IMG/VR virus record: IMGVR_UViG_3300021093_000148 | Span: 1-42,200 of that record | Length of the DNA: 42,200 nucleotides | Direction: 5' to 3' (one strand) | Source of the DNA: a virus | Part shown: positions 1-37,283 of the stretch, piece by piece | How positions within the stretch are numbered: position 1 is the first letter of the stretch | Layout of the letters: every line of letters begins with the position of its first letter | Notes under the pieces: model-generated | What the model was told of the DNA's origin: nothing | The model's input: the letters and a program-made list of their open reading frames with translations, nothing else | Database searches by the model: none | Position numbers and translations under genes: made by a program

Positions 1-13
1 AAAATAAAGAACG

Positions 14-38: not shown

Positions 39-131
39 ACAGGACACGTATGTCAGCATGACTAGCTAGACCTTATCCTACGGAATAGGCTAGAGATAAG
101 TGTGCTAGAAGGCTCTACAGCGTGTCTGGAA

Positions 132-203: not shown

Positions 204-225
204 CTGATATAATTTGGAGACTATA

Positions 226-381: not shown

Positions 382-598
382 AAATAGTTCAGTTATTAAA
401 TTATCTATGTGGAATCCTGACACGCAAGATTTAATAATTGTTTTTAGCAGTGGTTCTATTTGGCGTTATGCTAAAGTACCTTACGTTGTTTGTTGGTCTT
501 TATATTCTGCTGAGTCTTCTGGTAATTATTTTAATAAAAATATTAGAGGCAAGTATGAAGAATTTTCTATATATAAGCCTGGAGTACCCATTGTCTAA
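353..598 (+). CDS. KTSC-domain protein
   Basis: This 81-aa protein matches the KTSC pattern along its length: SSVI near the start, a Tyr-less W-N-P strand, L-x-I-x-F-x-S-G-S, then W-R-Y-x-x-V-P, A-E-S-S-G-x-Y-F-N and I-R-x-x-Y. KTSC domains are short phage and bacterial modules, sometimes fused to lysyl-tRNA synthetases or helicases, with poorly known roles. The whole protein is one domain here. It overlaps the genes on both sides, suggesting translational coupling. Confidence 0.8.
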   Translation: MQKIILKSFENSSVIKLSMWNPDTQDLIIVFSSGSIWRYAKVPYVVCWSLYSAESSGNYFNKNIRGKYEEFSIYKPGVPIV

Positions 599-740
599 GA
601 AGAAAAAAAATAAAAACAAACGTAGACCCAAAAAATCTTCTTATCTTTACTGTACTGATTCCCCAGAACAAATTAAAACTATAGCAATGAAGGTGTTTGG
701 TTCTATTTATTTTTCTCCATCTTCTTTAAATGACAATTAA
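591..740 (+). CDS. Lys-rich small protein, TTG start
   Basis: This 49-aa ORF begins at a TTG six bases after GGAG (581-584) and overlaps the KTSC stop. The N-terminus is a run of Lys, Asn and Arg (SKKKKNKNKRRPKKSS), followed by YLYCTDSPEQIKTIA. The basic leader suggests nucleic acid binding, but nothing is recognisable. The alternative ATG at 555 would lie inside the KTSC gene with a poorer ribosome site. Confidence 0.5.
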   Translation: MSKKKKNKNKRRPKKSSYLYCTDSPEQIKTIAMKVFGSIYFSPSSLNDN

Positions 741-742
741 AA

Positions 743-771
743 TTGTTTTTTACACATCTCTGTAGTATAAT
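743..771 (+). promoter_or_regulatory. Sigma70-type promoter for the proteasome-like gene
   Basis: TTGTTT (743-748), a 17-nt spacer and a perfect TATAAT (766-771) lie 33 nt before the ATG at 805. AAGGA just before the ATG gives a normal ribosome site. It is one of the best consensus promoters in the window. Confidence 0.75.
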
Positions 772-804
772 CCATGTGTTACTAGTTCAAAACCAAGGAT
801 TACC

Positions 805-1413
805 ATGACTACTATTTTAGGTGTTCAAGGAGAAGGTTTCAGTGTCATTTGCACTGACTCAAGAATTTCATCTATGGATGAAAGCGGTTTTACATCTCAA
901 ATAATAACTTTAGCCAAGAATTCTTCTAAAGTTGCTGTCAATGGCAAGTATCTTTTGGGTGCCGCTGGTGATGTTAGGGCTATCAATATCTTGCATCACG
1001 TTTTTGTTCCACCTGTTCCATCTCCTGGGTTGTCTGGATCAAAGTTGGACAGTTTTTTTACCAATAAATTTGTTCCTACTTTGAGAAATACATTTGAAGT
1101 TCAAGGTTATGCTGCTCCTGAAAGAGATAATTCATCTCACATTGCTGAGCAGGGATCTACCGTTATATGCTCTGTTCATGGATACATATATGTTGTAGAC
1201 GGAGATTATTCTTGGACTTCTGATGCAACTGGTTTATATGCTTTAGGAACTGGAAGTGCTTATGGTTTAGGTGCTCTTTCTGTTTTGTTTAACAAGAAAA
1301 AAGAACTTAATCCACTTCAAACAAAGTCTCTTTGTCTTAAAGCTATTGCTATAGCTGCAAAGTATGACCCCCATACTGGTCCTCCTTACTATACTTACAT
1401 ACAGGAACAGTAG
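805..1413 (+). CDS. Proteasome beta / HslV-like Ntn hydrolase, copy 1
   Basis: This 202-aa protein starts MTTILGV. Removal of Met would expose a Thr1 nucleophile, as in proteasome beta subunits and HslV. Asp17 is at the expected position in TDSRIS. A Lys (residue 41 of the processed chain) in KVAVNGKYLLGAAG matches the catalytic Lys33 context of beta subunits, with about 8 extra residues before it. LGTGSAYGLGAL matches the Ser129-region motif. Length is close to beta subunits and HslV. No alpha subunit, ATPase or propeptide is present here. The gene has its own consensus promoter. A paralogue lies at 27784-28395. Fold and catalytic class are well supported; substrate and role are unknown. Confidence 0.85.
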   Translation: MTTILGVQGEGFSVICTDSRISSMDESGFTSQIITLAKNSSKVAVNGKYLLGAAGDVRAINILHHVFVPPVPSPGLSGSKLDSFFTNKFVPTLRNTFEVQGYAAPERDNSSHIAEQGSTVICSVHGYIYVVDGDYSWTSDATGLYALGTGSAYGLGALSVLFNKKKELNPLQTKSLCLKAIAIAAKYDPHTGPPYYTYIQEQ

Positions 1414-1428
1414 ATAAGGAATATCAAC

Positions 1429-1734
1429 ATGGAAAGAGAAAAACTTTTTTGCGATTCTTGTAAAAAAGTTTGGAGTCGCACAAAAACAAGAGGCAGAAAG
1501 CCACGTATTTGTCCAAATTGTGTTGCTCAAATAATTATTGATCAGCAAGAAGAAGACGTAGAACTTTCTGTTGTTCAAGAAGATTCTCCAGCACCAACCA
1601 AGTACCCTCCCAATACCAAGTGGCATTGCCCTTCTTGTCGTGCATCTGTAAAAATATGTATTGGAATTAATTACCCTCCGACTCACCAATGTCCAAAAAG
1701 ACTCAGAAGAGTTTATCAATTGGAAATGATATAA
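1429..1734 (+). CDS. Double zinc-ribbon small protein
   Basis: This 101-aa protein has an N-terminal CDSC...CPNC pair (about residues 8-31) and a C-terminal CPSC with a second Cys cluster (about 68-88). They are separated by an acidic, Pro-containing linker. The spacing suits two zinc-binding ribbons. It starts 15 nt after the proteasome-like gene and ends 3 nt before the next, so it is probably cotranscribed. It could be a nucleic acid or protein adaptor; no family is recognised. Confidence 0.7.
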   Translation: MEREKLFCDSCKKVWSRTKTRGRKPRICPNCVAQIIIDQQEEDVELSVVQEDSPAPTKYPPNTKWHCPSCRASVKICIGINYPPTHQCPKRLRRVYQLEMI

Positions 1735-1737
1735 AAA

Positions 1738-1959
1738 ATGACATTTGCAAATTCTCCATTGCCACAAATCCAAAATATTATCAATGAATTGGAAAACCAA
1801 ATTTCCAAGGACACAATAGATCAATATGTAGCTAAAACGCTTATGATTTTTGCTGTTAACCGTTTTAACTTATTGATTTCTTATATCGATTCTCTTGAAT
1901 CAAAACTTGAATCGGCAGTTGCGGAAAATCAAAGATTACAAAATATTGCAGTTTACTGA
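1738..1959 (+). CDS. Short coiled-coil protein, copy 1
   Basis: This 73-aa helical protein ends in a heptad-like stretch (LESKLESAVAENQRLQ) typical of a coiled coil. The last residues NIAVY match QVAQY at the end of the 81-aa protein at 29368-29613. Both lie between a proteasome-like gene and the MPELNANIPP gene, so they are probably paralogues in a duplicated block. A role in oligomerisation is likely; function unknown. Confidence 0.65.
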   Translation: MTFANSPLPQIQNIINELENQISKDTIDQYVAKTLMIFAVNRFNLLISYIDSLESKLESAVAENQRLQNIAVY

Positions 1960-2000
1960 ACATTAAAAAAATTTATATTAAAAAGGACTAGTGCTTTAAA

Positions 2001-2207
2001 GTGCCGATAATTATTACTAACGAACATGATCATCCGTGCATCAACGCTCATCAATCAAAAGGATATTTATTTTTAAGAAATGGAACTTCTTTATTTTTTG
2101 ATGTTTTGTACTATAATGATTCTTGCTACTATCTTGAATATGTTGAAGATGAGCGCAGCACCATCGTTTTAACTTCAAATATAGTAGAAATGATAAAGTA
2201 TATTTAA
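2001..2207 (+). CDS. Hypothetical protein, GTG start
   Basis: This 68-aa ORF starts GTG-CCG (MPIIITNEHDHPC). It contains short beta-strand-like runs (GYLFLRNGTSLFFDVLYY, DERSTIVLTSNIVEMI), suggesting a small beta-rich fold. The nearest purine-rich ribosome site (AAGGA) is about 14 nt upstream, which is long, so the start is uncertain. Function unknown. Confidence 0.5.
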   Translation: MPIIITNEHDHPCINAHQSKGYLFLRNGTSLFFDVLYYNDSCYYLEYVEDERSTIVLTSNIVEMIKYI

Positions 2208-2235
2208 TACAATATAAGCCAGATGAAAGAACAGT

Positions 2236-2886
2236 ATGCCAGAACTAAATGCAAATATTCCTCCAATTGAGTGCTATGTTCGTGGCAATTATTTAAGGGA
2301 TCAAAAAGATTCTCATAATAAATATTTTCCCTGCATGATCTTTGGCGTTGCCTCAATCCAGGGTAGGAGTCCCTTGTTTCATTTCTTGATGGAAGATGGT
2401 GGTGTTTGGTGGAGAATGCCAATAAGTGCTTTTTGCGAAGAGCCAGGAGTGCCAGAAATAGACATTCACGATTTGGTTTTGTGGAACTCTTTTAGCCCAC
2501 ATATCACTGTAACTGAATTTCAAGCAATGAGAAATATGAGAATGGAATATGTATCAAGGAGCGGAAAGTTTATAAAAGGAAAATATTTATTTACGCTTGA
2601 TTGGCACGCTCCCGATGATAACACAACCAACTTGGGTTTTAGCACAAATCCAGGGCAGCACAAGTGCGGTCACGTAATCATAAGAGACGATGGCAATTAT
2701 GCTATTCAACCCAACAATAGGGTTCGCCTATATGACCCTTCTTACACAACTAAAAAAGTAAATTTAATTGATCGTCTTATAAATACTAGACAATGGGATG
2801 TTGAAGATGCAGACAAATGGGTAACTTCAGACGATGACCGCTATCACTATGGAGTTGTCAGTGAGGCAAAAGAATCACAATTTTAA
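2236..2886 (+). CDS. Conserved phage protein MPELNANIPP family, copy 1
   Basis: This 216-aa soluble protein starts MPELNANIPPIECYVRGNYL. It is rich in aromatic and His residues (LMEDGGVWWRMPI, FTLDWHAPDDNTTN, PGQHKCGHVIIRDDGN, IQPNNRVRLYDPS). By memory this resembles a conserved uncharacterised protein of aquatic phages; I cannot verify that here. The copy at 29715-30356 is nearly identical in protein but has many silent differences. A conserved Cys/His pair in QHKCGH could bind metal. Function unknown. Confidence 0.8.
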   Translation: MPELNANIPPIECYVRGNYLRDQKDSHNKYFPCMIFGVASIQGRSPLFHFLMEDGGVWWRMPISAFCEEPGVPEIDIHDLVLWNSFSPHITVTEFQAMRNMRMEYVSRSGKFIKGKYLFTLDWHAPDDNTTNLGFSTNPGQHKCGHVIIRDDGNYAIQPNNRVRLYDPSYTTKKVNLIDRLINTRQWDVEDADKWVTSDDDRYHYGVVSEAKESQF

Positions 2887-2975
2887 AATCCTATATAGGG
2901 TAAATTTGAAAAAAATTTTTGAGGCCCTTTTTCTGTTTTAACTTTTTTTTGATTTTTTGGTTTATACAAAAAATA

Positions 2976-3308
2976 CTAAAAGATTCCACTTAATCCAGAT
3001 TTAATTACTCTTCTTGCTACGTCTGTATCTCTTTCTAGCATTTGTTGGCTTTTGTTTATACCTGTTTTAATTGTACTAAATATATCTTTTGCGTGATGTC
3101 CAACAACAGCTCTAGTTCCTAACCCTATTTGCTCAACAATTTCTCCTGCACCTACATATCCTAATGCTGATACTCCCACTATACTTGCGGCAGATCCACT
3201 TGTTCCTACGGGTCCTTGTCCTCCAGAAGCTTTGTTGACTACTTGTCCTCCACCAAACATTCCTGCTCCAAAGGCTATCATTTTTTTATCTGTTCTACTC
3301 AGCGCCAT
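2976..3308 (-). CDS. Gly/Ala-rich hypothetical protein
   Basis: This 110-aa protein is preceded by a good ribosome site (AGGAG, then ATG). The N-terminal half is Gly-rich with weak hydrophobicity (MIAFGAGMFGGGQVV, SIVGVSALGYVGAGEI). The C-terminal half is polar and helical. Composition resembles the other minus-strand Ala/Gly-rich proteins nearby (3604-4675, 6266-6787), possibly virion or ejected proteins. No family recognised. Confidence 0.55.
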   Translation of the reverse strand: MALSRTDKKMIAFGAGMFGGGQVVNKASGGQGPVGTSGSAASIVGVSALGYVGAGEIVEQIGLGTRAVVGHHAKDIFSTIKTGINKSQQMLERDTDVARRVIKSGLSGIF

Positions 3309-9971: not shown

Positions 9972-10020
9972 AAAAAACTCCTTTAAATTATATTATATCA
10001 TATGTAGGTTTATTTAAATA

Positions 10021-10861
10021 CTAACAGCACGAAACATCCAGACATGCGCTACCATTTGCTCTATAGCCGCCACTCGCAGAACAATATTCTAAATTGTTTG
10101 TACCAGTCAAACCACTACCACAGCTAGAAGCATTGTTACATCCGCTATCAGAATAATAAATCCATCCGGAGCCAAGCACGTTTTGGGAGTAATAACCAGT
10201 TGCGGCACCATTTATGCCTGTTGCGTACACACAAGCATATGTGCTTGCGGTAGTCCACGCAGTGCATCCGCTACAAGAACCGCAAGCTCCAAAATTGCCG
10301 CAAGCTCCAAAACTACCACAGGCTCCATAGCCACCACAGTCTACAAGACCAGAAGAAGTAGATCCAGCTCTAGTGTACCTATAGCAAGTTCTTGATTTTG
10401 TTCCAGTTTTTGTTCCAGTTCTAGTTCCGGTATTGGCACCACAATCACAAGGTCCACAACTACATGATTCAGAACACGATTCTGAACAGGAGGCTGAATC
10501 TGATTCAGGATTATAACCCCATACAACTGTTCCAGAACTTGATATATTGCTATAGTCTCCAAAGCCAGCTGCATTATAAGCTCTAACCCTAATTCTAAAT
10601 GAGCTTGCACTATATTGAGTATTTAATGTAGCAGAAGCTGTATAGATAATTGTTTCAGCGCTCCAGGTAGAACCATTATTCGTGCTAGTTTGATATCCAT
10701 ATTGAGTGATTTCAAGTCCGCCATTTGGTGGAGCGGACCAGCTGAAAGTGTCGTTTGCATCACCAGCAGTTAGTGTTATTGACCCAACTGCTGCTGGTAT
10801 TCCTCCAAGTGAAAATATTCTTCCGCGATCTTGCCCCTGATATTGAACCTATGAATGGCAT
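10021..10861 (-). CDS. FN3-domain, Cys/Gly-rich tail fibre protein, frame disrupted
   Basis: The only start (MPFIGSISG) lies before an extra G in a G4 run (plus-strand C4 at 10834-10837). Removing one base gives 279 aa: QDRGRIFSLGGIP, a fibronectin type III-like domain (residues ~30-115, FRIRVRAYNAAGFGDYS), then a Cys/Ser/Gly-rich tail (CSESCSESCSCGPCDCG, CGSFGACGNFGACGSC). FN3 modules are common in tail fibres. The Cys-rich tail may be disulfide-bonded. The frame is open throughout after the shift, which argues for one real gene. It lies 8 nt after the upstream gene. Confidence 0.65.
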
Positions 10862-27783: not shown

Positions 27784-28395
27784 ATGACCACTATTGTTGC
27801 CGTTCAAGGACCAGATTATTGTGTAGTTGGTACTGACTCTAGGATTTCATCCTTTGATGAATCTGGGTTGGCTTATCAAATAACCACTTTAGGTACAGGG
27901 TCTTGTAAAATTGCACAAAAGGGTCGTTATTTGCTGGGCGCGGCGGGTGATGTTCGTGCAATAAACATACTGCACCATGCATTCACCCCGCCGATCCCGG
28001 CGTTTAGGGGCAGCGGAGAACTGCTGGATCAATTTATAACAACGAAGTTTATACCCAACTTGCAAGTTTGTTTTGAAAACACAGGATACGCAATGCCAGA
28101 CCTTGCTGAAGAGAAGACTCACATGACTGAGCAAGCTTCTACAATCTTGGTTGCTATAAATGGTGCGGTTTATATTATTGAAGGCGATTATTCTTGGACT
28201 TCAGATAGAACTGGAATTTATGCAATAGGTACTGGTTCATCATATGCGCTGGGAGCAATGCAAGCACTTAGCGGAGGAAAGGTTTTAACTGTTCAAAAAG
28301 CCAAACTGATTGCTCAAAAGTCTTTATCAATTACATCCAGATTTGATCCATACACAGGATCGCCGTTTCAGATGTTTGTTCAGGAGCAGTTTTGA
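27784..28395 (+). CDS. Proteasome beta / HslV-like Ntn hydrolase, copy 2
   Basis: This 203-aa protein starts MTTIVAVQG. The processed Thr1, Asp17 (TDSRIS) and Lys41 (SCKIAQKGRYLLGAAG) are all conserved with copy 1, and IGTGSSYALGAM matches the Ser129-region motif. About 60% identity to copy 1 by eye. It differs most at the surface loop around residues 60-95 and the C-terminus. The two could form homo- or mixed rings; no alpha subunit or ATPase is visible. Ribosome site unclear, possibly coupled to the HTH gene. Function unknown. Confidence 0.85.
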   Translation: MTTIVAVQGPDYCVVGTDSRISSFDESGLAYQITTLGTGSCKIAQKGRYLLGAAGDVRAINILHHAFTPPIPAFRGSGELLDQFITTKFIPNLQVCFENTGYAMPDLAEEKTHMTEQASTILVAINGAVYIIEGDYSWTSDRTGIYAIGTGSSYALGAMQALSGGKVLTVQKAKLIAQKSLSITSRFDPYTGSPFQMFVQEQF

Positions 28396-29714: not shown

Positions 29715-30356
29715 ATGCCAGAATTAAATGCAAATATTCCGCCGATTGAATGTTATGTTCGGGGAAATTATTTAAGAAACCAAAAGGACTCTCATGACAT
29801 ATATTTGCCATGCATGCTCTTCGGTGTCGCTTCCATTCAGGGCAGGAGCCCCTTATTTCATTTTCTAATGGAAGACGGGGGTGTTTGGTGGAGAATGCCA
29901 ATAAGTGCCTTCTGTGACCAGCCAGAAGTGCCAGAGGTGGACATCCATGAACTGGTCCTATGGAACTCTTTTAGCCCCCATATCACCGTGACTGAATTTC
30001 AGGCAATGCGGAATATGAGAATGGAATATGTCTCAAGAAGTGGAAACTTTATAAAAGGAAAATATCTATTTACCCTGGATTGGCATGCTCCTGACGACAA
30101 CACAACAAATCTCGGGTTTAGCACTAATCCCGGTCAGCATAAATGTGGTCATGTAATCATAAGGGATGATGGTAATTTTGCCATCCAGCCAAACAATCGG
30201 GTTCGGCTATATGATCCTTCATATACAACCAAGAAAACCAATTTAATTCATCGCCTTATTAATACTCAGCAATGGGATGTTGAAGATGCGGCCAAATGGG
30301 TAACATCAGATGATGACAGCTACCATTACGGCATTGTCACCGGAAATGAAGAATAA
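29715..30356 (+). CDS. Conserved phage protein MPELNANIPP family, copy 2
   Basis: This 213-aa protein is almost identical in amino acids to 2236-2886 over its whole length (MPELNANIPPIECYVRGNYL, LMEDGGVWWRMPI, PGQHKCGHVIIRDDGN). The DNA differs at many third positions. This pattern means long-standing duplication with selection on the protein. It closes the block that begins with the second proteasome-like gene. Function unknown. Confidence 0.8.
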   Translation: MPELNANIPPIECYVRGNYLRNQKDSHDIYLPCMLFGVASIQGRSPLFHFLMEDGGVWWRMPISAFCDQPEVPEVDIHELVLWNSFSPHITVTEFQAMRNMRMEYVSRSGNFIKGKYLFTLDWHAPDDNTTNLGFSTNPGQHKCGHVIIRDDGNFAIQPNNRVRLYDPSYTTKKTNLIHRLINTQQWDVEDAAKWVTSDDDSYHYGIVTGNEE

Positions 30357-30940: not shown

Positions 30941-31039
30941 AAAAATTTTAATATTTTTGCAAAATTGAGTACATATCCGTGAAGTGTTACTTTATATATT
31001 AATACTTACAACAAAGGGTCTGATTACCGAGTCAATCAG

Positions 31040-31139
31040 CTGGAGTGCATGTTTGTTTACAAACTTGTACTCCAGTCTGTTAGGGTGACCTAACATGGGA
31101 TTGAGTGCGTTTCTGTGCCCGTGTGCTATTGTAAGTGTG
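31040..31139 (+). promoter_or_regulatory. Cassette 1 control region
   Basis: Hairpin CTGGAGT/ACTCCAG (31040-31075) with inner stem GTTTG-TTTA-CAAAC. Box TTAGGGTGACCTAA (31080-31093). TTGAGTGCGTTT from 31101 and TGCTATTGT with -10 TATTGT (31127-31132). Predicted +1 31139; box centre at -52. The leader has only a weak stem. Confidence 0.75.
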
Positions 31140-31178
31140 TCGGGGCAACCGCTCCGCACTACCGAAAGGACACACACG

Positions 31179-31538
31179 ATGGCTACGCCACGCCCATTCA
31201 ACGACGAGCAGCGAGAGCGGTTCGCAACACTATCAGCAGGCTTCATCGCCATCCTGCTGTGGACGCCCATTATCATGAGCCTCACCGCCACCGCGCAAGC
31301 GGGGGGCGATTTCTGGGACTTCTGGTGGGCTTTCATCCTGTCCGGTCTGTTCGGGATCGTCTTTGCCCTGTTCGGGTGGATGGCTTGCGACATCCGCATG
31401 GACTACCGGCACGAGATGGCAGACCAGTACGAGAGAGATCGTGTCTGCTCCCAATGCCACAACGCATCGCTGGACCGAACATGGCGTCGCCAGCCCAAGA
31501 CCGGACTCCTGTTCAAGACAAAGATCAAGAACCGGTGA
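31179..31538 (+). CDS. Cassette 1: small membrane protein
   Basis: The ATG after AAAGGA gives 119 aa starting MATPRPFNDEQRERFATLSA. Two transmembrane helices are likely (GFIAILLWTPIIMSLTATA; WAFILSGLFGIVFALFGWMA). A basic, Cys-containing tail (CSQCHNASLDRTW) with one CxxC follows, probably cytosolic. An upstream in-frame start would read through the promoter. Unlike the phage backbone it uses GC-ending codons. Function unknown. Confidence 0.65.
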   Translation: MATPRPFNDEQRERFATLSAGFIAILLWTPIIMSLTATAQAGGDFWDFWWAFILSGLFGIVFALFGWMACDIRMDYRHEMADQYERDRVCSQCHNASLDRTWRRQPKTGLLFKTKIKNR

Positions 31539-31546
31539 CCAAATCT

Positions 31547-31582
31547 CCCCCCCTCGCCCGAACCCCCTCGGGCGAGGGGGGG
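31547..31582 (+). terminator. Cassette 1 terminator hairpin
   Basis: C7-TCGCCCGA pairs with TCGGGCGA-G7 (15 bp). No U-tract; AACCCCC follows, as in cassettes 2-6. Confidence 0.75.
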
Positions 31583-31646
31583 AACCCCCGCCGTTCTATT
31601 CAGACTGTCTAAGATATTGAATATGCAGTCTCTCTCTCCCCGTCGG

Positions 31647-31748
31647 TTGGTGTGCACGTTTGTTTACAAACTTAAGCGCCAATCTGTTAGGTATGCCTAA
31701 CGGGTCTCTTTGAGTGCGTTTCTGTGCCGGTGTGCTATTGTGAGTGTG
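31647..31748 (+). promoter_or_regulatory. Cassette 2 control region
   Basis: Hairpin TTGGTGT/GCGCCAA (31647-31682, two G-T pairs) with inner stem GTTTG-TTTA-CAAAC. Box TTAGGTATGCCTAA (31687-31700). TTGAGT (31710-31715), -10 TATTGT (31736-31741). Predicted +1 31748; box centre at -54. Confidence 0.75.
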
Positions 31749-31790
31749 TCGGGGAGAAACACAAGTACCCTCGGCAGGAAGGACAACACC

Positions 31791-32159
31791 ATGACCACGA
31801 ACCAGCCGACCGCCGATGCGGAGGCAATGGATGAGGGCGAGATCAAGCAAGCGTTCAGGGACGGGCGGGAAATCATCTCCGCACTCACGGACTGCATGAC
31901 CAAGATCTGCTTCCACGATGGCGACCCGTACAACCAGCGCACCACGATGCTCTCCATTGCGGTGGGCAGGAACATCATCAACGAGATCCGCAGGACACAC
32001 GAGATCCTCCACGATCTCGCAATGCTGATCGACGAGGACGACTACACTCTCTGGTCGCATGGCATCGCCGGGGAACTCCTCCGAGCCGGAAGGATCAGCC
32101 GAAAGGATTACTGGGACCTCTACTGCCAGGGTTGGCTCATCGACAACTGCAACTGCTGA
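31791..32159 (+). CDS. Cassette 2: soluble helical protein
   Basis: This 122-aa protein starts MTTNQPTADAEAMDEGEIKQ behind AGGAAGGA. It is helical and acidic (FRDGREIISALTDCMTK, LHDLAMLIDEDDYTLW) and ends WLIDNCNC, with two Cys at the end that could bind metal or form a disulfide. No family recognised. The start in the promoter (31710) is rejected. Confidence 0.6.
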   Translation: MTTNQPTADAEAMDEGEIKQAFRDGREIISALTDCMTKICFHDGDPYNQRTTMLSIAVGRNIINEIRRTHEILHDLAMLIDEDDYTLWSHGIAGELLRAGRISRKDYWDLYCQGWLIDNCNC

Positions 32160-32168
32160 CAACAATCT

Positions 32169-32204
32169 CCCCCCCTCGCCCCCTCCCCCTCGGGCGAGGG
32201 GGGG
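32169..32204 (+). terminator. Cassette 2 terminator hairpin
   Basis: C7-TCGCCC pairs with GGGCGA-G7 around a C/T-rich loop; followed by AACCCCC and no U-tract. Confidence 0.75.
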
Positions 32205-32267
32205 AACCCCCGCCGTTCTGACGGTGCTTCCTTATAGATTGAGTATACACAAGGATCACTTCACATC

Positions 32268-32396
32268 GGTTGGTGTGCAAGTTGGTTCACTGACTTAAAC
32301 ACCAACCTTGTTAGGTATGCCTAACGGTCTCTTTGAGTGCGTTTCTATGGCGATGTGCTATTGTAAGAGTGTCGGGAGAACCCCAAGTACCCCGAC
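32268..32396 (+). promoter_or_regulatory. Cassette 3 control region and 5' stem-loop
   Basis: Hairpin GGTTGGTGT/ACACCAACC (32268-32307) with inner stem GTTGG-TTCA-CTGAC. Box TTAGGTATGCCTAA (32311-32324). TTGAGT (32333-32338), TATTGT (32359-32364). Predicted +1 32371 is the first base of GTCGGG, which pairs with CCCGAC (32391-32396). Box centre at -53.5. Confidence 0.75.
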
Positions 32397-32408
32397 GGAA
32401 AGGAAATC

Positions 32409-32804
32409 ATGGGCGTCGTCATTGAGCCGGACTACCAGCGTCAACGCAGGGACAAGGTGATCGTGCCTTGCGAGTGCGGTGCCTCCGTGGAGGTCAACTA
32501 CGAAGACTGGTATGCAGACCAGTCGGCATGGTGCCAGACAGGACAGCACTACTTCTACATCAGCGAGGACGAGTGGTACATCAATCCGCATGGAGTGGAG
32601 TGGCATGAGGTCCACATCACGATGGGGCGCTGGGACTGGATTCACCGGGCAATGGGGCTCGGACCCGGCAGTTGGGTTGGGTTCATGCACCCCGACATCC
32701 TCGGCGCTCTCCTGCCCCGTGCCAGCAGCGACCCGTTCTACGATGCTCTGATGAGTGTCGTGGACACCGCCCAGACTCTGAACGTCATGGTCAAGTGGTC
32801 CTGA
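32409..32804 (+). CDS. Cassette 3: CxC-containing small protein
   Basis: This 131-aa protein starts at ATG 32409 behind GGAAAGGA. An N-terminal VPCECGASVEVNYEDWYADQ gives a C-x-C pair (residues 21, 23) and a further Cys at 42 (WCQTG), consistent with zinc binding. It then has a Trp/His-rich middle (HEVHITMGRWDWIHRAMG) and a helical C-terminus. The aromatic-rich core suggests an interaction surface. No recognised family. Confidence 0.6.
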   Translation: MGVVIEPDYQRQRRDKVIVPCECGASVEVNYEDWYADQSAWCQTGQHYFYISEDEWYINPHGVEWHEVHITMGRWDWIHRAMGLGPGSWVGFMHPDILGALLPRASSDPFYDALMSVVDTAQTLNVMVKWS

Positions 32805-32810
32805 AAATCT

Positions 32811-32840
32811 CCCCCCGCCCGAACCCCCTCGGGCGGGGGG
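32811..32840 (+). terminator. Cassette 3 terminator hairpin
   Basis: C6-GCCCGA pairs with TCGGGC-G6; followed by AACCCCC. Confidence 0.75.
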
Positions 32841-32899
32841 AACCCCCACCGATCTATACATACTGTCTGTGATATTTAATACGCAGTCTCTCTCTATCA

Positions 32900-33024
32900 G
32901 CTGGCGTGCAAGTTGGTTCACTGACTTAAACGCCAGCGTATTAGGTATGCCTAACTGGTCTCTTTGAGTGCGTTTTCGTGCTCGTGTGCTATTGTAAGTC
33001 TGTCGGGGGGACGGTCCCCACGAC
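32900..33024 (+). promoter_or_regulatory. Cassette 4 control region and 5' stem-loop
   Basis: Hairpin GCTGGCGT/ACGCCAGC (32900-32937), inner stem GTTGG-TTCA-CTGAC. Box TTAGGTATGCCTAA (32941-32954). TTGAGT (32964-32969), TATTGT (32990-32995), predicted +1 33002 beginning a GTCGGGGG...CCCCACGAC stem with one bulge. Box centre at -54.5. Confidence 0.75.
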
Positions 33025-33036
33025 GGAAAGGAAAGC

Positions 33037-33348
33037 ATGGGCAAGCGCTACAACTCAACGGCGGTCATGGAGGTGTTGGTGGTGATCACCAGTAGGCTCT
33101 ACTTCACCGGCACACCATTCTCGGAGGAGGACTTCGACGAGTGGCAGTCCCGCCTGCTCGGTCTCGTCCGCGAGATGAGCGACCAACTGGACAAGGAGGA
33201 TGTCGCGGACGCCATCAATGCCGAGATCGTCCTCAAGAACGGAATGCGGTCCTACGAGGACTTGCTGCACGAGTTCAGCGAGCTCGTCAGGACTGGCATT
33301 CCCACCTGGAGAGTCGGGCTGCGTCAGATGTCTCGCTCCCCCAACTGA
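33037..33348 (+). CDS. Cassette 4: helical acidic protein
   Basis: This 103-aa protein starts MGKRYNSTAVMEVLVVITSR behind GGAAAGGA. Mostly amphipathic helices, acidic (FSEEDFDEWQSRLLGLVREM, QLDKEDVADAINAEIVLKNG), ending in a basic tail. Composition suits a small protein-binding inhibitor, but that is only a guess. No family. Confidence 0.6.
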   Translation: MGKRYNSTAVMEVLVVITSRLYFTGTPFSEEDFDEWQSRLLGLVREMSDQLDKEDVADAINAEIVLKNGMRSYEDLLHEFSELVRTGIPTWRVGLRQMSRSPN

Positions 33349-33373
33349 CCGAATGAGCCATCACTCTCCCCCG

Positions 33374-33399
33374 CCCCCCTCGCCCTCGGGCGAGGGGGG
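33374..33399 (+). terminator. Cassette 4 terminator hairpin
   Basis: C6-TCGCC pairs with GGCGA-G6 around CTCG; followed by AACCCCC. Confidence 0.75.
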
Positions 33400-33459
33400 A
33401 ACCCCCACCGGTTCAGGCAGACATCCATGTTGATTTAATATACGTTTTCTCCCTGTAAG

Positions 33460-33581
33460 CTGGTGTGCAAGTTGGTTTACAAACTGAAACACCAGTTCGT
33501 TAGGGCAACCTAACATGAAATTGAGTGCGTTTCCACGGTCTTATGCTATTGTAAGTGTGTCGGAGGGACGGTCTCTCCGAC
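33460..33581 (+). promoter_or_regulatory. Cassette 5 control region and 5' stem-loop
   Basis: Hairpin CTGGTGT/ACACCAG (33460-33495), inner stem GTTGG-TTTA-CAAAC with one mismatch. Box TTAGGGCAACCTAA (33500-33513). TTGAGT (33521-33526), TATTGT (33547-33552), predicted +1 33559 starting GTCGGAG which pairs with CTCCGAC. Box centre at -52.5. Confidence 0.75.
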
Positions 33582-33593
33582 AGGAAGGAAACC

Positions 33594-33776
33594 ATGCCAA
33601 TACAATTGACCTGTCCGTACTGCGACAGGACATTCACATACGACACCGTGACATTCATCGGTGCGAGCAAGAAGATGTCCACGCACAAGGCTCGTTGCCC
33701 GAAGAAACGATACCTCGGCGGTGACTTGGAGATCGGAACAGCCGAGGATGCCCGTGAACTGCTGGAGGGGGAGTGA
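33594..33776 (+). CDS. Cassette 5a: C2HC zinc-finger protein
   Basis: This 60-aa protein starts MPIQLTCPYCDRTFTYDTVT and has C-P-Y-C at residues 7-10, then H and C in STHKARCPKK. The spacing C-x2-C-x18-H-x3-C is a typical zinc finger (C2HC). A basic loop (GASKKMSTHKARCPKK) and acidic tail follow. It may bind nucleic acid or protein. It is the first gene of a two-gene cassette. Confidence 0.7.
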   Translation: MPIQLTCPYCDRTFTYDTVTFIGASKKMSTHKARCPKKRYLGGDLEIGTAEDARELLEGE

Positions 33777-34006
33777 TGACCTACGAAGACTTTGAGAGGC
33801 TCGTCCAGTCATCGTTCCCCAATGACGGCAACATCCGGTACGGACAGCATTGGTTCAACACCCTGTATTCGGTGAGGCCCGGGGTGGCTAACCTCATCAG
33901 GGGGACACTCCACGATCCTTTCCACCGAGAGAAGGTTTCAGAGCAGACGCAAGGCTATGCCCGTGCGCTCTGGAGCGACCTTCGTGCTCACGACACGGTG
34001 AACTGA
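33776..34006 (+). CDS. Cassette 5b: second gene of a two-gene cassette
   Basis: The stop of 5a overlaps this ATG (TGATG), so the two are translationally coupled. This is the only cassette with two genes. The 76-aa protein starts MTYEDFERLVQSSFPNDGNI; it contains a helix and a His/Arg region (HDPFHREKVSEQTQGYARAL). No family recognised. The pair may act together. Confidence 0.6.
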   Translation: MTYEDFERLVQSSFPNDGNIRYGQHWFNTLYSVRPGVANLIRGTLHDPFHREKVSEQTQGYARALWSDLRAHDTVN

Positions 34007-34011
34007 ATCCT

Positions 34012-34033
34012 CCCCCCGCCCTCGGGCGGGGGG
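34012..34033 (+). terminator. Cassette 5 terminator hairpin
   Basis: C6-GCCC and GGGC-G6 around a TC turn; followed by AACCCCC. Confidence 0.7.
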
Positions 34034-34099
34034 AACCCCCATCCGTTCAGACAGACATCTATACTTATTTAATATATATATCTCTCTGTCTACACGCAG

Positions 34100-34218
34100 C
34101 TGGCGTGCGGGTGAGTTTACAAACTTAAACGCCAGTCCGTTAGGTTAGCCTAACAGTCTCTTTGAGTGCGTTTCTGTGCTCGTGTGCTATTGTAAAGATG
34201 TCGGGGAGACTCCCCGAC
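34100..34218 (+). promoter_or_regulatory. Cassette 6 control region and 5' stem-loop
   Basis: Hairpin CTGGCGT/ACGCCAG (34100-34135), inner stem AGTTT-AC-AAACT. Box TTAGGTTAGCCTAA (34140-34153), the closest of the nine to the DtxR/IdeR iron-box consensus. TTGAGT (34162-34167), TATTGT (34188-34193), predicted +1 34200 starting GTCGGGG, which pairs with CCCCGAC. Box centre at -53.5. Confidence 0.75.
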
Positions 34219-34231
34219 GGAAAGGAAAGCA

Positions 34232-34408
34232 ATGAGTAACAGACTGAGAAACGTACTCGCTAGGGTGTATTGGTACCTAACGACATTCAGGGCGCTGAAA
34301 GGATCGCACCAACCGTGTCGCCACTGCTACTTCCGTTGGCTGAACGAGAAGCGCAACCGTTGGTTGTGGTTGTGGTGCGACAACGACTGCAACTGGGGCA
34401 ACGAGTAG
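34232..34408 (+). CDS. Cassette 6: 58-aa Cys/Trp zinc-knuckle-like protein
   Basis: The ATG follows GGAAAGGA. The product starts MSNRLRNVLARVYWYLTTFR; CRHC (residues 29-32) and CDNDC (49-53) give four Cys in a C-x2-C / C-x3-C layout, a likely zinc site. The section between is unusually Trp-rich (NRWLWLWC). The basic N-terminal helix may bind nucleic acid or membrane. Cassette position and ribosome site make it real. Confidence 0.6.
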   Translation: MSNRLRNVLARVYWYLTTFRALKGSHQPCRHCYFRWLNEKRNRWLWLWCDNDCNWGNE

Positions 34409-34431
34409 CCCCAACACTCGGACCAAGATCT

Positions 34432-34468
34432 CCCCCCCTCGCCCCCCTCTCCCTCGGGCGAGGGGGGG
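34432..34468 (+). terminator. Cassette 6 terminator hairpin
   Basis: C7-TCGCCC pairs with GGGCGA-G7 around a C/T-rich loop; followed by AACCCC. Confidence 0.75.
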
Positions 34469-34527
34469 AACCCCGACCGGTCTAGGCAGTCTGTCTATAA
34501 TGTTTAATATACAGCCTTCCTTCATCA

Positions 34528-34651
34528 GCTGGCGTGCGAGTTAGTTCACTGACTTAAACGCCAGCCTGTTAGGGGCACCTAACGGTCTCTTTGAGTGCGT
34601 TTCTGTGCCGGTGTGCTATTGTAAGTGTGTCGGCGGGACGGTCCCGCCGAC
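34528..34651 (+). promoter_or_regulatory. Cassette 7 control region and 5' stem-loop
   Basis: Hairpin GCTGGCGT/ACGCCAGC (34528-34565), inner stem GTTAG-TTCA-CTGAC. Box TTAGGGGCACCTAA (34569-34582). TTGAGT (34591-34596), TATTGT (34617-34622), predicted +1 34629 starting GTCGGCGGGA, which pairs with TCCCGCCGAC (10 bp). Box centre at -53.5. Confidence 0.75.
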
Positions 34652-34662
34652 AGAAAGGCACC

Positions 34663-34998
34663 ATGAACAAGGTGAAAATCAACGGGCGATGGGTGAGCGC
34701 AAGCAACCCTCCCACAATAAGCGAAGTGTGGCACCTAGTGCTACCGGCGAAGCACGATGCGATCCGGACACTTACCAACCTCATCGCCGGACTGGAGACC
34801 CTGGTGGTGGCGTTGGAAGCCCTGCTCGCTGAACACCCATACGAGATCCAGGACCCCAGGACAGCCTTGCTATGGGAGAAGCACCACGCCCGGATCACTC
34901 GGGAAATCGGCAAGAACCAACGAGAGCGGAACGCCGCCAAGTTGCGCTACCGGCAGATGGTCCAAGTGCTGGAGTGGTACGACAACAGCGTGTCCTGA
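34663..34998 (+). CDS. Cassette 7: helical protein
   Basis: This 111-aa protein starts MNKVKINGRWVSASNPPTIS behind AGAAAGG. It then has long helices with Leu/Ala (LTNLIAGLETLVVALEALLA) and a basic coiled-coil-like region (NQRERNAAKLRYRQMVQVLE). Predicted soluble and dimer-prone. No family recognised; size and charge fit other cassette products. Confidence 0.6.
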   Translation: MNKVKINGRWVSASNPPTISEVWHLVLPAKHDAIRTLTNLIAGLETLVVALEALLAEHPYEIQDPRTALLWEKHHARITREIGKNQRERNAAKLRYRQMVQVLEWYDNSVS

Positions 34999-35011
34999 AC
35001 ACGCCCCCTGC

Positions 35012-35039
35012 CCCCCCCTCGCCTTCGGGCGAGGGGGGG
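35012..35039 (+). terminator. Cassette 7 terminator hairpin
   Basis: C7-TCGCC pairs with GGCGA-G7 around TTCG; followed by AACTCCC. Confidence 0.75.
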
Positions 35040-35103
35040 AACTCCCACGATCCAGTCACATCAACACATTAAATTGAATATACGGTTTCTCTCACTTCAT
35101 CAG

Positions 35104-35190
35104 CTGGCGTGCAGGTCGGCTTACTGACTTAAACGCCAACTCATACAGACAGGCCAGACTCTTATATTTAATATACACTTTCTCCCTGTA
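35104..35190 (+). repeat. Empty cassette: hairpin and spacer with no promoter or gene
   Basis: A full-type hairpin (stem CTGGCGT/ACGCCAA, inner stem GTCGG-CTTA-CTGAC) is followed at once by CAGACAGGCCAGACT and TTTAATATACA, which resemble the spacers that follow terminators elsewhere. The box, promoter, gene and terminator are absent between 35140 and 35150. It looks like a cassette that has lost its interior. Confidence 0.7.
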
Positions 35191-35293
35191 AGCTGGTGTG
35201 TACGAGCTTTAGCGAAGTTAAACACCAGCTTTGTTAGGTTCACCTAATAAAAAAAAGAGTGCGTTTTTGTGACGGTGTGCTATTGTAAGGGCA
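35191..35293 (+). promoter_or_regulatory. Cassette 8 control region, leaderless type
   Basis: Hairpin AGCTGGTGT/ACACCAGCT (35191-35230). Box TTAGGTTCACCTAA (35234-35247). GAGTGCGTTT is kept though TTG of TTGAGT is lost. TATTGT (35281-35286) is followed by AAGGGC and ATG at 35293, the predicted +1. Box centre at -52.5. Confidence 0.75.
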
Positions 35294-35676
35294 TGGCAAA
35301 CAAGCCGGAGCCGACCGCTAAGGCGGAGGACAACAACAACAACCACAGCAAGCCGAGGAAGATCAACCTCTCCGAACTGAAAGGCACGGTGTCCCCACGG
35401 GGACGCAAGCCCTACACGGACGAGGCGTTGGTCCAGTACCTCACGGAGATGGTGCAGGACGGAGAGGGCTTCGGACTGGACGCTCCCTACGAGGTCACCG
35501 ACGACATGCGCAAGGGCACCCCACGGGGCGTGAAGGCGCAGAACCGCGAGCGTGCCAAGTGGCGCAACCGCATCGTGTCGGTGTGGACCTCCACGCTCGG
35601 CAGGGACAAGGGCGAGATCACCGTCGGGTGGACCTCGGAGCACGAGGTCACCGTCTCCCTCAGGAACAAGGCGTAG
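35293..35676 (+). CDS. Cassette 8: basic protein, paralogue of cassette 9
   Basis: The ATG lies six bases after the -10 TATTGT, so the mRNA is probably leaderless. The 127-aa product has a disordered Asn-rich start, then PRKINLSELKGTVSPRGRKP, EALVQYLTEMVQDGEGFG and a C-terminal AKWRNRIVSVW with beta strands. Cassette 9 shares KINLSxLKG, RGRK, YLxEMV, EGFG and AKWRNRIVS. RGRK next to a helical segment suggests DNA binding. The family is unrecognised. Confidence 0.65.
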   Translation: MANKPEPTAKAEDNNNNHSKPRKINLSELKGTVSPRGRKPYTDEALVQYLTEMVQDGEGFGLDAPYEVTDDMRKGTPRGVKAQNRERAKWRNRIVSVWTSTLGRDKGEITVGWTSEHEVTVSLRNKA

Positions 35677-35706
35677 AAAGGCGCTGAAAAACCGCAAGGT
35701 TTTTAC

Positions 35707-35733
35707 CCTCCCCTTCGGGGGAGGTTTTTTTTT
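35707..35733 (+). terminator. Cassette 8 terminator with U-tract
   Basis: CCTCCCC-TTCG-GGGGAGG followed by T9. A small AAAACC-GCAA-GGTTTT hairpin precedes it (35688-35703). This is a classic Rho-independent terminator, unlike those of cassettes 1-7. Confidence 0.92.
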
Positions 35734-35744
35734 GTCCAAAATCG

Positions 35745-35780
35745 TTGGCGTTCAAGATGCTGAAGCATCTTGAACGCCAA
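35745..35780. repeat. Perfect palindrome after cassette 8
   Basis: TTGGCGTTCAAGATGC, TGAA, GCATCTTGAACGCCAA form a 16-bp stem and 4-nt loop. The same sequence with flanks recurs at 36354-36389. Confidence 0.8.
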
Positions 35781-35836
35781 TCCGTACAAGGCAACGCTCT
35801 CTTCCCTTGAATACATTTTCCTAACTTACTTGAGAA

Positions 35837-35938
35837 GCTGGTGTTCAATAGCTTTAGCTAAATTGAACACCAGCGATGTTAGGCTGACCTAATAAGAAAA
35901 TGAGTGCGTTTTCGTGCCGGTGTGCTATTGTAGGAGTC
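35837..35938 (+). promoter_or_regulatory. Cassette 9 control region, leaderless type
   Basis: Hairpin GCTGGTGTTCAAT/ATTGAACACCAGC (35837-35874). Box TTAGGCTGACCTAA (35879-35892). ATGAGTGCGTTT keeps GAGTGCGTTT; TATTGT (35926-35931); ATG at 35939 one base after the predicted +1. Box centre at -52.5. Confidence 0.75.
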
Positions 35939-36286
35939 ATGGCAACCAATGCCGGTGACCGCAATAGCGGAACCAACCCAAAGAAAATCAACCTGTCCGA
36001 CCTGAAAGGTAAGACTTCCCAACGGGGGCGCAAGCGGTACGCAAACGCCACCCTCACGGAATACCTGAGGGAAATGGTGAGCACACGGGAAGGCTTCGGT
36101 GTTCCCGAACTCTTGACCGTGACTCCCAAGACAACGGAGAAGCAAATCCAGACCCAAAAAGCAAAGTGGCGCAACCGCATTGTGTCATTGTTTGAGGAAC
36201 TGAACTTCCCGGGACACCGCATCAGTATTTCGTGGACGGACGCTCACGAAATGGTCGTGGAAATGGTTGAGACCACCGAAGGCTGA
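35939..36286 (+). CDS. Cassette 9: basic protein, paralogue of cassette 8
   Basis: This 115-aa protein starts MATNAGDRNSGTNPKKINLS and shares the core of cassette 8: KKINLSDLKGKTSQRGRKR, TEYLREMVSTREGFGV, KAKWRNRIVSLFEEL, then C-terminal strands (ISISWTDAHEMVVEMV). The pair is diverged but colinear, implying an old cassette duplication. The leader is absent (ATG at +1). Possible DNA-binding or regulatory protein, unproven. Confidence 0.65.
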   Translation: MATNAGDRNSGTNPKKINLSDLKGKTSQRGRKRYANATLTEYLREMVSTREGFGVPELLTVTPKTTEKQIQTQKAKWRNRIVSLFEELNFPGHRISISWTDAHEMVVEMVETTEG

Positions 36287-36316
36287 GGAACCTTCATAAA
36301 AAACGAAAGTTTTTTG

Positions 36317-36342
36317 ACTCCGCTTCGGCGGAGTTTTTTTTT
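36317..36342 (+). terminator. Cassette 9 terminator with U-tract
   Basis: ACTCCGC-TTCG-GCGGAGT followed by T-run; an AAAAAAC-GAAA-GTTTTTT hairpin precedes it. Confidence 0.92.
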
Positions 36343-36353
36343 GTCCAAAATCG

Positions 36354-36389
36354 TTGGCGTTCAAGATGCTGAAGCATCTTGAACGCCAA
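36354..36389. repeat. Copy of the palindrome after cassette 9
   Basis: Identical to 35745-35780 including the leading TTTTTTTTTGTCCAAAATCG, giving a ~55-nt direct repeat at the ends of cassettes 8 and 9. Confidence 0.8.
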
Positions 36390-36468
36390 TACTTTTATCC
36401 TTATATTCATACTAATTGAGTATACTTACTTGGCAAGGTTAGACCCTCCTTATATATTCTCTTTTTTT

Positions 36469-36512
36469 AATTGGTGGTCGTTTAAGAAATGCATTTCTTA
36501 AACACACCAATT
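36469..36512. repeat. Terminal palindrome of the array
   Basis: AATTGGTG/CACCAATT encloses GTTTAAGAAATG/CATTTCTTAAAC, a perfect 24-nt palindrome. It has the outer-stem/inner-stem plan of the cassette hairpins but no box, promoter or gene after it, and marks the right end of the array. Confidence 0.7.
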
Positions 36513-37121
36513 AAATTAAATTTATTCTTTCCATTATGTTTAGTATTTTCTAATCGCATAGTCATTGCGTTGTCCTTTCAATTGCATTTCCTAATTGATT
36601 TGCGGGTGCCAATGGCTCACCAGTTCCCTTGGTAAATTCCCTCCTAATAGCCTGGGTGAATAGGTCACTCAAACCCCCCCTCAATTTACTCAACAAGAAT
36701 AAAATTCATGGATCTGGATATAGATAGGGTTAGGAGCATAGGAATAGTCTCTTCATATAGCCGCCTTCCCCAAATTCATATTAAAAATCGGGTTAAAAGC
36801 CCTCTATTCAACCTATATAAGAGGTATAAGAATAAACTTAATGGAAAATAGGCAAAATTTTTTTGTTTTTAATTAAAAGTTGACTATTTTAATCAACTTT
36901 TATTAAGTTTTAGAATAAAATTAACCGCTTTTTGGCACAAAAAAAAGCCTTAAAAATAAGATTTCTCTTACTTCTAAGGCTTTCTTTGCTTAATTACAAT
37001 GGATTCGGGGGTACACCATAGTAATTAATAAATATTGACGCAAATTGTCGTGCGTGTCGTCTCTTTATAATACTTTTGAAGCATATATCTTTTAAATATT
37101 TGCTTCTTGTTTTAGGGCTTC
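36513..37121. other. Non-coding gap between array and leftward operon
   Basis: I see no credible gene in about 600 nt. The stretch includes short AT-rich runs and a CACTCAAACCCCCCCT patch. A weak inverted repeat lies at 36875-36901 (AAAAGTTGA/TCAACTTTT). It could hold a promoter, an origin or a regulatory RNA, but nothing specific is visible. Confidence 0.4.
36944..36983 (-). terminator. Terminator of the leftward operon
   Basis: AAAGCCTTA and TAAGGCTTT form a 9-bp stem; on the minus strand it is followed by T8. It lies about 140 nt after the last small gene (37122) and ends the minus-strand operon. Confidence 0.8.
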
Positions 37122-37283
37122 CTAAGACTCCTGGAGATCTTCCTCTATATCTCTAAAGAACTCTTCATTAGCCCAATCCCATTTTTCTTTTTCCCGCTCA
37201 TACCAAACAACATAACAACCCCAGCACATTGGGTTTGCCATATCTGATATATCACAGCATAAATCTTGCTTATTATCTATCAT
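37122..37283 (-). CDS. 53-aa Cys-containing protein
   Basis: The ATG overlaps the previous stop (ATGA at 37280-37283). The product starts MIDNKQDLCCDISDMANPMC and continues WGCYVVWYEREKEKW, with CC near residue 9 and CxxC near 20-23, a possible zinc site, then an acidic tail. The overlap shows it is real. Function unknown. Confidence 0.6.
   Translation of the reverse strand: MIDNKQDLCCDISDMANPMCWGCYVVWYEREKEKWDWANEEFFRDIEEDLQES

Follow-up and report, generated by a model that had tools for sequence, protein, structure and literature searches.

What could keep a row of small viral genes, whose products are mostly unrelated to one another, under the same set of non-coding elements? This question is raised by 42,200 nucleotides (nt) of the IMG/VR virus record IMGVR_UViG_3300021093_000148 (hereafter the window), in which nine units follow one another at positions 31036-36390, each made, in this order, of a hairpin, the palindrome TTAGG-N4-CCTAA, a promoter-like block (GAGTGCGTTT-N-TGC-TATTGT), a small gene and a stop stem. 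An earlier note, made from the sequence alone, had described them as independently transcribed cassettes sharing one control architecture. The layout as a whole is confirmed and, going beyond that note, sequence comparison places the array in a family of arrays with a common hairpin and a common protein family at the right end. Regarding its function, the array may be a battery of separately expressed, exchangeable small early genes under one phage regulator, a reading which we hold with about as much confidence as doubt.

Nine units with one control layout

The nine exact copies of TTAGG-N4-CCTAA in the array compare with a mean of 0.004, and a maximum of 1, in 500 dinucleotide shuffles of the array, and thus the repeated layout with its conserved non-coding parts is borne out. 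The distance from the start of the palindrome to TATTGT is 47-49 nt in every unit, and AGTGC[AG]TTT is present nine times in the array and nowhere else on either strand of the window. The earlier note would be contradicted by such pieces occurring singly across the genome; within the window they do not, save for one stray palindrome, the tenth exact match, at 37112-37125 to the right of the array, which has neither hairpin, promoter block nor the other parts. The array is not an assembly artefact, since three other virus records (IMG/VR 3300020183, 3300020578 and 3300021376, termed G001-G003) contain all or most of it, the stretches that align being 99.8-99.96% identical. The alignment of G002 spans both array junctions, that of G003 spans the left junction, with the palindrome spacing continuing past the right one, and G001 begins within the array and contains units 3-9 and the right junction. 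The lone palindrome at 37112-37125 is retained in all three. The G+C content is 50-58% at 31-36.5 kb, against 31-47% in the rest of the window.

Several elements of the earlier description have to be refined. Eight units have a single gene, as had been stated, but unit 5 has two overlapping open reading frames (ORFs), giving 10 genes. Each of the nine units has its hairpin, but extra copies occur, one of them gene-less (35104-35139) and the others after units 8 and 9. Of the terminators proposed for every unit, only those of units 8 and 9 are canonical; the stems that close units 1-7 are G+C-rich and very stable and have no U-tract. Finally, a conserved block stands in the place of the predicted promoter in all nine units, but a generic sigma-70 promoter scan lists none of them, so that the nine promoters rest on conservation. 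The view that the proteins are mostly unrelated holds: none of the eight window proteins outside the RGRK family (see below) groups with any other of the 115 ORFs compared from nine arrays (BLASTP 1e-4), 105 of these ORFs being heuristic picks, some spurious, of which 48 were judged plausible by eye.

Comparison of the 11 hairpin copies indicates that the array hairpin is real. Indeed, 89.6% of the cells pair, compensatory changes are found in 7 of 14 pairs, and 15 cells are changed on both sides, compared to 4.9 in shuffles, none of 500 reaching as high. A 2x2 internal loop with GC opposite AA is shared by seven of the 11, namely the hairpins of units 2-7 and the gene-less copy, whereas those at 35745-35780 and 36354-36389 are perfect and mutually identical. 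The gene-less hairpin at 35104 resembles a relic. Under the outer-stem pattern used for the comparison of arrays, 10 hairpins are counted in the window, versus 5 on the plus strand (one of them inside unit 5) under a stricter stem rule. An extra box, TTRAATATRCNNTCTCTC, lies ahead of the hairpins (31613-31640 and equivalents) and is similar both to TTGAGTATGCGCTCTCTC of a related record (G014) and to the -35 block of the promoter.

In units 1-7, the start codon lies 38-49 nt from TATTGT. Compared to shuffles, the leader hairpin of units 4-7 is clearly more stable (z -3.1 to -4.1) and that of unit 1 has z -2.1, whereas the leaders of units 2 and 3 show no such difference (z -0.2 and -1.1). In units 8 and 9 the -10 stands only 6 and 7 nt before the start codon, which predicts mRNAs with little or no leader. 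At 31095-31179, 31710-31791, 34591-34663 and 35900-35939, the reading frame stays open from the promoter block into the gene, and a similar leader would be encoded each time, twice with MSAFLCRCAIVSVS; this is probably a by-product of the repeat.

Homologous arrays in freshwater phages

Ten further records of related freshwater phages carry arrays adjoining homologous genes. A search of viral contigs with the capsid protein yielded 206 relatives, of which 80 were kept. Taking as flanks the genes from thyX to a 213-aa gene on the left and minus-strand genes on the right, homologues of the window flanks border an array on both sides in two records, G004 and G014; in G012, a record that starts inside the array, they are found on the right side. 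In all three the matching stretches are repeat-rich and of raised G+C. Adding the protein family of units 8 and 9 to the search contributed L150-L153, L155 and L160, each with at least one homologous right-flank gene, and a search with the hairpin pattern contributed L169. With the window included and L150/L151 taken as one, the tally is ten arrays, or about eight clearly distinct ones given the close pairs L152/L153 and G014/L160. Three matches to the palindrome plus GAGTGCG (L016, L017 and L018) were rejected as due to chance, their context being unrelated and a second copy missing. L169 (positions 1-3200), with a type B array and three RGRK-family genes, is a second virus record from the metagenome of G001.

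By sequence, the arrays of these relatives hold, at the matching place, mostly other genes and often another palindrome. What they share is a hairpin of 33-46 nt with the outer stem [CT]NGG[CTA]G[TC], counted 78 times in 54.5 kb of nine arrays versus 4 times in 136 kb of flank, with array borders set by eye from G+C and repeats and L151 and L169 left out. The palindrome is TTAGG-N4-CCTAA in the window lineage, CTAACGTTAG in G012, L150 and L151, TGTAATATTACA in G004, L152 and L153, and TTAACGTTAA in L155; no clear palindrome was found in G014, L160 and L169. In two long records its copies concentrate in the array: G012 has 38 of its 41 TAACGTTA within the first 10 kb, and G004 has all of its 22 GTAATATTAC at 82-92 kb. 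The remaining three TAACGTTA of G012 lie near 28 kb, away from the array, and in its first 9 kb (L115:1-9000) CTAACGTTAG is also seen within ORFs and stop stems, far denser than one per unit. Kinship of the flanking genes is mixed, two right-flank genes placing the window nearer L152/L153 and another one nearer L159/L160, and hence an exchange of arrays between lineages is not concluded.

The RGRK protein family

Units 8 and 9 encode paralogues that are 42% identical and belong to the sole ORF family present in all nine arrays compared. These RGRK proteins are small and basic, mostly with RG[RK][KP] (KGKP in L169), and occur in 2-3 copies per array, with 27 members in 10 loci plus three in L169. 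They form two BLASTP clusters, of 6 and 3 arrays, joined by profile comparison (93.5%, E 2e-7). Mapped on the RGRK tree, the palindrome class changes 4 times, which is the minimum, compared to 13.1 times with shuffled labels (0 of 200 as low); this tree holds 23 of the 27 members in five groups, one for each of four palindromes and one for the type B arrays that lack a palindrome, the three L151 copies, identical to those of L150, one L153 row and the later-found L169 being omitted.

The start of these genes also differs between array types. In the type B arrays, 9 of 10 family genes of the window, L159, L160 and L169 begin 6-7 nt after a TAnnnT box, as counted by reading the upstream sequences and assuming a GTG start where needed (the exception is L159:9486), whereas leaders are longer in all 11 type A family genes shown. 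Several type A RGRK leaders (L149, which is G012, L150 and L155) contain TGTCGG...CCGACA-like stems, resembling the leader hairpin of units 4-7.

In sequence searches, single members matched DUF6306 (4e-4) and Runt (3e-3) in Pfam, and no Pfam helix-turn-helix (HTH) family was matched, a fold search giving only weak results. Named phages and plasmids gave no match to one type A member at E up to 1, nor did named phages to the protein of unit 9, and among PDB sequences the type A profile had none below E 0.9. Foldseek returned no match at E<=0.001 for the structure models. An R3H- or SpoVS-like fold is not claimed, the best Z (VIA) being 5.3 with unrelated rows close behind, and assignment to the Lsr2 family is not supported, neither six type A members nor units 8 and 9 having matched Lsr2 in Pfam (sequence only).

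Genome position and codon use

Among the matches listed for the capsid protein are its homologues in Streptomyces phages, at 48.7-51.2% identity (95-99% query coverage), and those phages that were looked up are Stanwilliamsviridae. With the window ORFs of the structural block typed by Pfam, the order of capsid, protease, portal, RNR, glycosyltransferase and thyX genes is matched in the phages TunaTartare and Samisti12, with thyX facing away. Cultivated Stanwilliamsviridae genomes end on the outer side of thyX, and it is on this side that the array is found. TunaTartare, Gilson and Samisti12 have annotated Lsr2-like genes, and no such gene (PF11774) was detected in six records of the relatives of the window, which are fragments and do not include the window record itself; the window phage is for this reason filed as related to the Stanwilliamsviridae and not as a member.

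In Samisti12 the terminal repeat measures 10,666 bp, and the BE1 phages, to which Samisti12 and Jay2Jay belong, have a direct terminal repeat of about 11 kb with 20-25 ORFs, among them small unknown genes and an lsr2-like gene (PMC5764925). The Samisti12 repeat has 20 small genes, mostly unnamed, some foldable leaders and a raised G+C. Before its genes, 14 gaps of at least 90 bp contain TAGA[CG]T in 12 cases, the full TGTC..GACA in 5 and a half-site in 11, the half-site count having no shuffle control; full sites number 9 in 9.7 kb of the repeat versus 2 in the 23.5 kb alongside. Both regions lie on the outer side of thyX and combine small genes, -10-like boxes, palindromes or their half-sites and raised G+C and third-position G+C (GC3). 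They differ in that Samisti12 has another palindrome and an Lsr2-like gene, and that its physical repeat is established, the window being known from its sequence record. The array hairpin was found neither in 8.9 kb of the Samisti12 repeat nor in the last 6.9 kb of TunaTartare, and one type A RGRK protein and that of unit 9 have no match in named phages. On sequence comparison, the Samisti12 repeat shows a similar layout in a looser form, without the hairpin. TunaTartare has an exact terminal repeat of 777 bp, and CAAGCTTG occurs 13 times in its right 20 kb (111-131) compared to twice in 81-111 kb and twice in 0-50 kb. In some small-gene promoters TTGACA stands shortly upstream of CAAGCTTG, in 4 of 13 cases in TunaTartare (strict spacing) and with 4 matches in Gilson.

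Codon use also sets the array apart, with a GC3 of 0.67-0.91 in its ORFs versus 0.24-0.42 in nine other window genes. Likewise, GC3 is 0.72 for the 20 repeat genes of Samisti12 and 0.48 for 16 picked others, one of which (10017-10478, GC3 0.78) is also inside the repeat. Every tRNA detected in the window and in G003 has an anticodon matching an A-ending codon, and four A-ending codons read by phage tRNAs are rarer in the array (46 of 230) than in 20 other genes (404 of 1074, p 1.7e-7). This contrast is compatible with expression before the phage tRNAs, in a host of higher G+C.

Proposed function and competing explanations

If the array is a battery of early genes, each unit would be its own transcription unit closed by its own stop stem, and its extended -10 promoter (TGC-TATTGT) would be usable at once by the host RNA polymerase. 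Units 1-7 would be translated from a Shine-Dalgarno leader, most with a hairpin, and units 8 and 9 from a leaderless start. The palindrome would be the operator for a single phage-encoded DNA-binding protein running all units jointly. It probably marks a promoter operator, as it lies upstream at nearly constant spacing, its centre falling at about -53 if TATTGT spans -12 to -7. In favour of the battery as a whole are the confinement of palindrome and promoter block to the array, the stray copy aside, the arrays of relatives next to homologous flanking genes with their own confined palindromes, the sorting of RGRK proteins by palindrome class, the codon contrast and the layout of the Samisti12 repeat. 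The likeliest reader of the operator would be the RGRK protein. Since the window RGRK genes have the same operator as the other units, feedback is suggested; a feedback shut-off after an early burst is tentatively favoured. The hairpins would mark unit borders and may aid the gain and loss of units. Because the array is beyond thyX, where Stanwilliamsviridae genomes end, it may be the first part to reach the cell and to be expressed, and it looks like a plug-in toolkit for early host control. If so, the hairpin, the operator or the RGRK gene would provide a search handle for unknown early phage genes in metagenomes, the evolution of DNA-binding specificity could be studied on naturally paired changes in operator and protein, and there would be a testable reason for the G+C-rich codons of array genes in low-G+C phages.

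Several observations weigh against this interpretation. Regarding position, none of the three left and seven right neighbours of the array has a match in TunaTartare (1-50 and 81-131 kb) or Samisti12 (1-34 kb), the tRNAs lie outside thyX in the window and inside it in these two phages, and the terminal location is deduced from thyX and the structural genes, no record showing an end; moreover, the BE1 paper reports no such control elements (PMC5764925). Regarding the regulator, the searches made with RGRK proteins yielded no convincing match to a family or structure and their structure models are middling (predicted local distance difference test, pLDDT, 67 and 76), for which reason DNA binding is proposed from their basic residues and their linkage. 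Many forks of the RGRK tree are weakly supported and long branches meet, common descent alone could yield the association of protein and palindrome, and the type B relatives G014, L160 and L169 have RGRK-family proteins without a clear palindrome. A palindrome upstream of the -35 also fits an activator. Finally, G+C alone predicts codon differences too.

A broader proposal, which we regard as less likely than not, is that the arrays constitute a new regulatory platform of hairpin-bordered units with one operator per phage read by the new RGRK family, in which operator and reader change together while the hairpin and promoter layout stays, giving each lineage a private control code. Incoming genes would then be captured into the current operator code of the phage.

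It is also conceivable, although unlikely in our opinion, that whole gene-plus-promoter units are moved, as by attC sites, at hairpins acting in recombination or processing, regulation being secondary. Such a cassette exchange would explain one outer-stem consensus in nine arrays, with its 78 copies against 4 in the flanks, as well as gene-less and doubled hairpins, orphan cargo between conserved borders and the GC-opposite-AA internal loop of 7 of the 11 window copies. However, homologous recombination between repeats would yield an identical pattern, no free cassette was seen, and no tyrosine recombinase family was found in the five records searched, which are fragments. Quite improbable is a chromatin-like silencer, in which a phage protein of nucleoid type would coat or bridge the region by binding to palindromes and hairpins, with the genes as passengers. 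The 38 and 22 palindrome cores of the type A arrays in two long records, some within ORFs, would suit it, and RGRK could replace Lsr2, given the Lsr2-like genes of the named phages and the lack of an Lsr2 match in the six freshwater records; yet the window has exactly one palindrome per unit at near-constant promoter spacing, as expected of an operator rather than a coat. The abrupt step in G+C and GC3 and the lack of any DNA match in named phages or plasmids could suggest that a G+C-rich mobile element or satellite of foreign origin was inserted recently, but a homologous array sits between the same flanks in G004 and G014 and beside right-flank genes in the other loci checked, and Samisti12 also has a raised-G+C array, so that synteny largely refutes this very unlikely reading. 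An assembly chimera or chance repeats, which have only the composition step in their favour, are virtually eliminated by the occurrence of the array in three further records (99.8-99.96% identity, the G002 alignment spanning both junctions) and by the 0.004 palindromes of the shuffles.

Relation to known systems

The host-takeover module of SPO1 and the first-step-transfer region of T5 are dense sets of small genes in terminal repeats, thought to act first on the host, and the window array is likewise a dense row of small genes. We know of no common operator-hairpin unit with changing cargo in either phage. The SPO1 analogy drawn in the earlier note gains slightly from the location beyond thyX and from the BE1 terminal repeat of small genes there. 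SPO1 and T5 terminal repeats have been compared in size with those of BE1 phages (PMC5764925).

The link that had been made to cluster K mycobacteriophages and their start-associated sequences (SAS) is not sustained: a GGGATAGGAGCCC-like SAS site has no match in the window at up to 2 mismatches, and the window elements stand at the promoter and not at the start codon. In cluster K, these short elements are repeated before many small genes, and the extended form (ESAS) contains an inverted repeat (PMC3203893). Unlike the window palindrome, which stands upstream of the promoter block, the SAS is not a palindrome, and 3-7 bp separate it from the start codon.

A closer parallel can be drawn with acr-aca systems, which combine small unrelated cargo, an inverted-repeat operator at the promoter and a linked small regulator gene, Aca proteins repressing acr promoters by feedback through an inverted repeat inside the core promoter (PMC9410906). 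There, a single operon is controlled, in contrast to the many separate units of the window array. The Aca operator is placed within the core promoter and the window palindrome upstream of the -35, a location that would suit an activator as well. Aca proteins are moreover of HTH type, and RGRK matched no HTH family in Pfam.

N4-type single-strand promoters were discarded, as the promoter block follows the window hairpins and does not precede them. A DtxR/IdeR iron box was likewise dropped, since the DtxR/IdeR operator is 19 bp long. Integrons consist of single-gene units separated by imperfect attC hairpins, and single-gene units also lie between imperfect hairpins in the window array. They differ in that the window units each have a promoter-like block, and an integron was rejected with no integrase, and no tyrosine recombinase, in five records (fragments). 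Arrays of this kind were not found in the titles and abstract starts listed by searches of an open-access library, which is weak evidence as subscription papers fall outside its scope.

Unit coordinates, cargo and neighbouring genes

All the features below are on the plus strand, except for the palindromes, which are exact motif matches without strand; the promoter blocks are delimited by conservation only. Unit 1 comprises a hairpin (31040-31075), a palindrome (31080-31093), a promoter block (GAGTGCGTTT ... TGC-TATTGT, 31103-31132), a gene for an orphan of 119 aa, hydrophobic and with a CxxC stretch by eye (31179-31538), and a terminal G+C-rich stem without U-tract (31546-31583), similar stems following units 2-7. 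In unit 2, hairpin (31647-31682), palindrome (31687-31700) and promoter block (31712-31741) precede an orphan gene of 122 aa (31791-32159). The orphan of unit 3 is the longest array protein, with 131 aa (32409-32804), behind a hairpin at 32270-32305, a palindrome at 32311-32324 and a promoter block at 32335-32364. Unit 4 encodes an orphan of 103 aa (33037-33348), its hairpin, palindrome and promoter block being located at 32901-32936, 32941-32954 and 32966-32995. Unit 5, with hairpin 33460-33495, palindrome 33500-33513 and promoter block 33523-33552, contains a first gene of 60 aa, zinc-finger-like on weak matches below the cut-offs (33594-33776), and an overlapping second gene of 76 aa (33776-34006). 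Hairpin (34100-34135), palindrome (34140-34153) and promoter block (34164-34193) of unit 6 stand before a Cys/Trp-rich orphan of 58 aa (34232-34408), and those of unit 7 (34529-34564, 34569-34582 and 34593-34622) before an orphan of 111 aa (34663-34998), after which comes the gene-less hairpin.

Units 8 and 9 encode the RGRK-family proteins. In unit 8, the hairpin (35193-35228) and palindrome (35234-35247) are followed by a promoter block (35257-35286) 6 nt before the ATG of a gene of 127 aa (35293-35676), then by a canonical terminator stem and T-run (35707-35724) and the first perfect hairpin (35745-35780). In unit 9, the corresponding elements are at 35838-35873 (hairpin), 35879-35892 (palindrome) and 35902-35931 (promoter block, 7 nt before the ATG), the gene of 115 aa at 35939-36286, the canonical terminator stem, followed by a T-run, at 36316-36335 and the second perfect hairpin at 36354-36389.

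None of the ten array proteins of the window has a match better than E 0.001 in Pfam, PHROGs or PADLOC, and the array DNA has none among named phages and plasmids. The best sub-threshold matches are phrog_8466 for the second gene of unit 5 (0.0012), DUF7410 for its first gene (0.0015) and a holin family for unit 1 (0.0044). Most of the 48 plausible ORFs of the eight other arrays are likewise without Pfam or PHROGs match at 1e-3; Pfam assigns two deaminase families and one weak membrane-protein model at this threshold, and PHROGs eight families, five of which are deaminases.

Around the structural block, a proteasome-subunit-like gene is doubled (805-1413 and 27784-28395, the second copy typed by Pfam and the pairing made by eye), as is the gene of a protein of 213-216 aa (2236-2886 and 29715-30356), its copies sharing 82% DNA identity.

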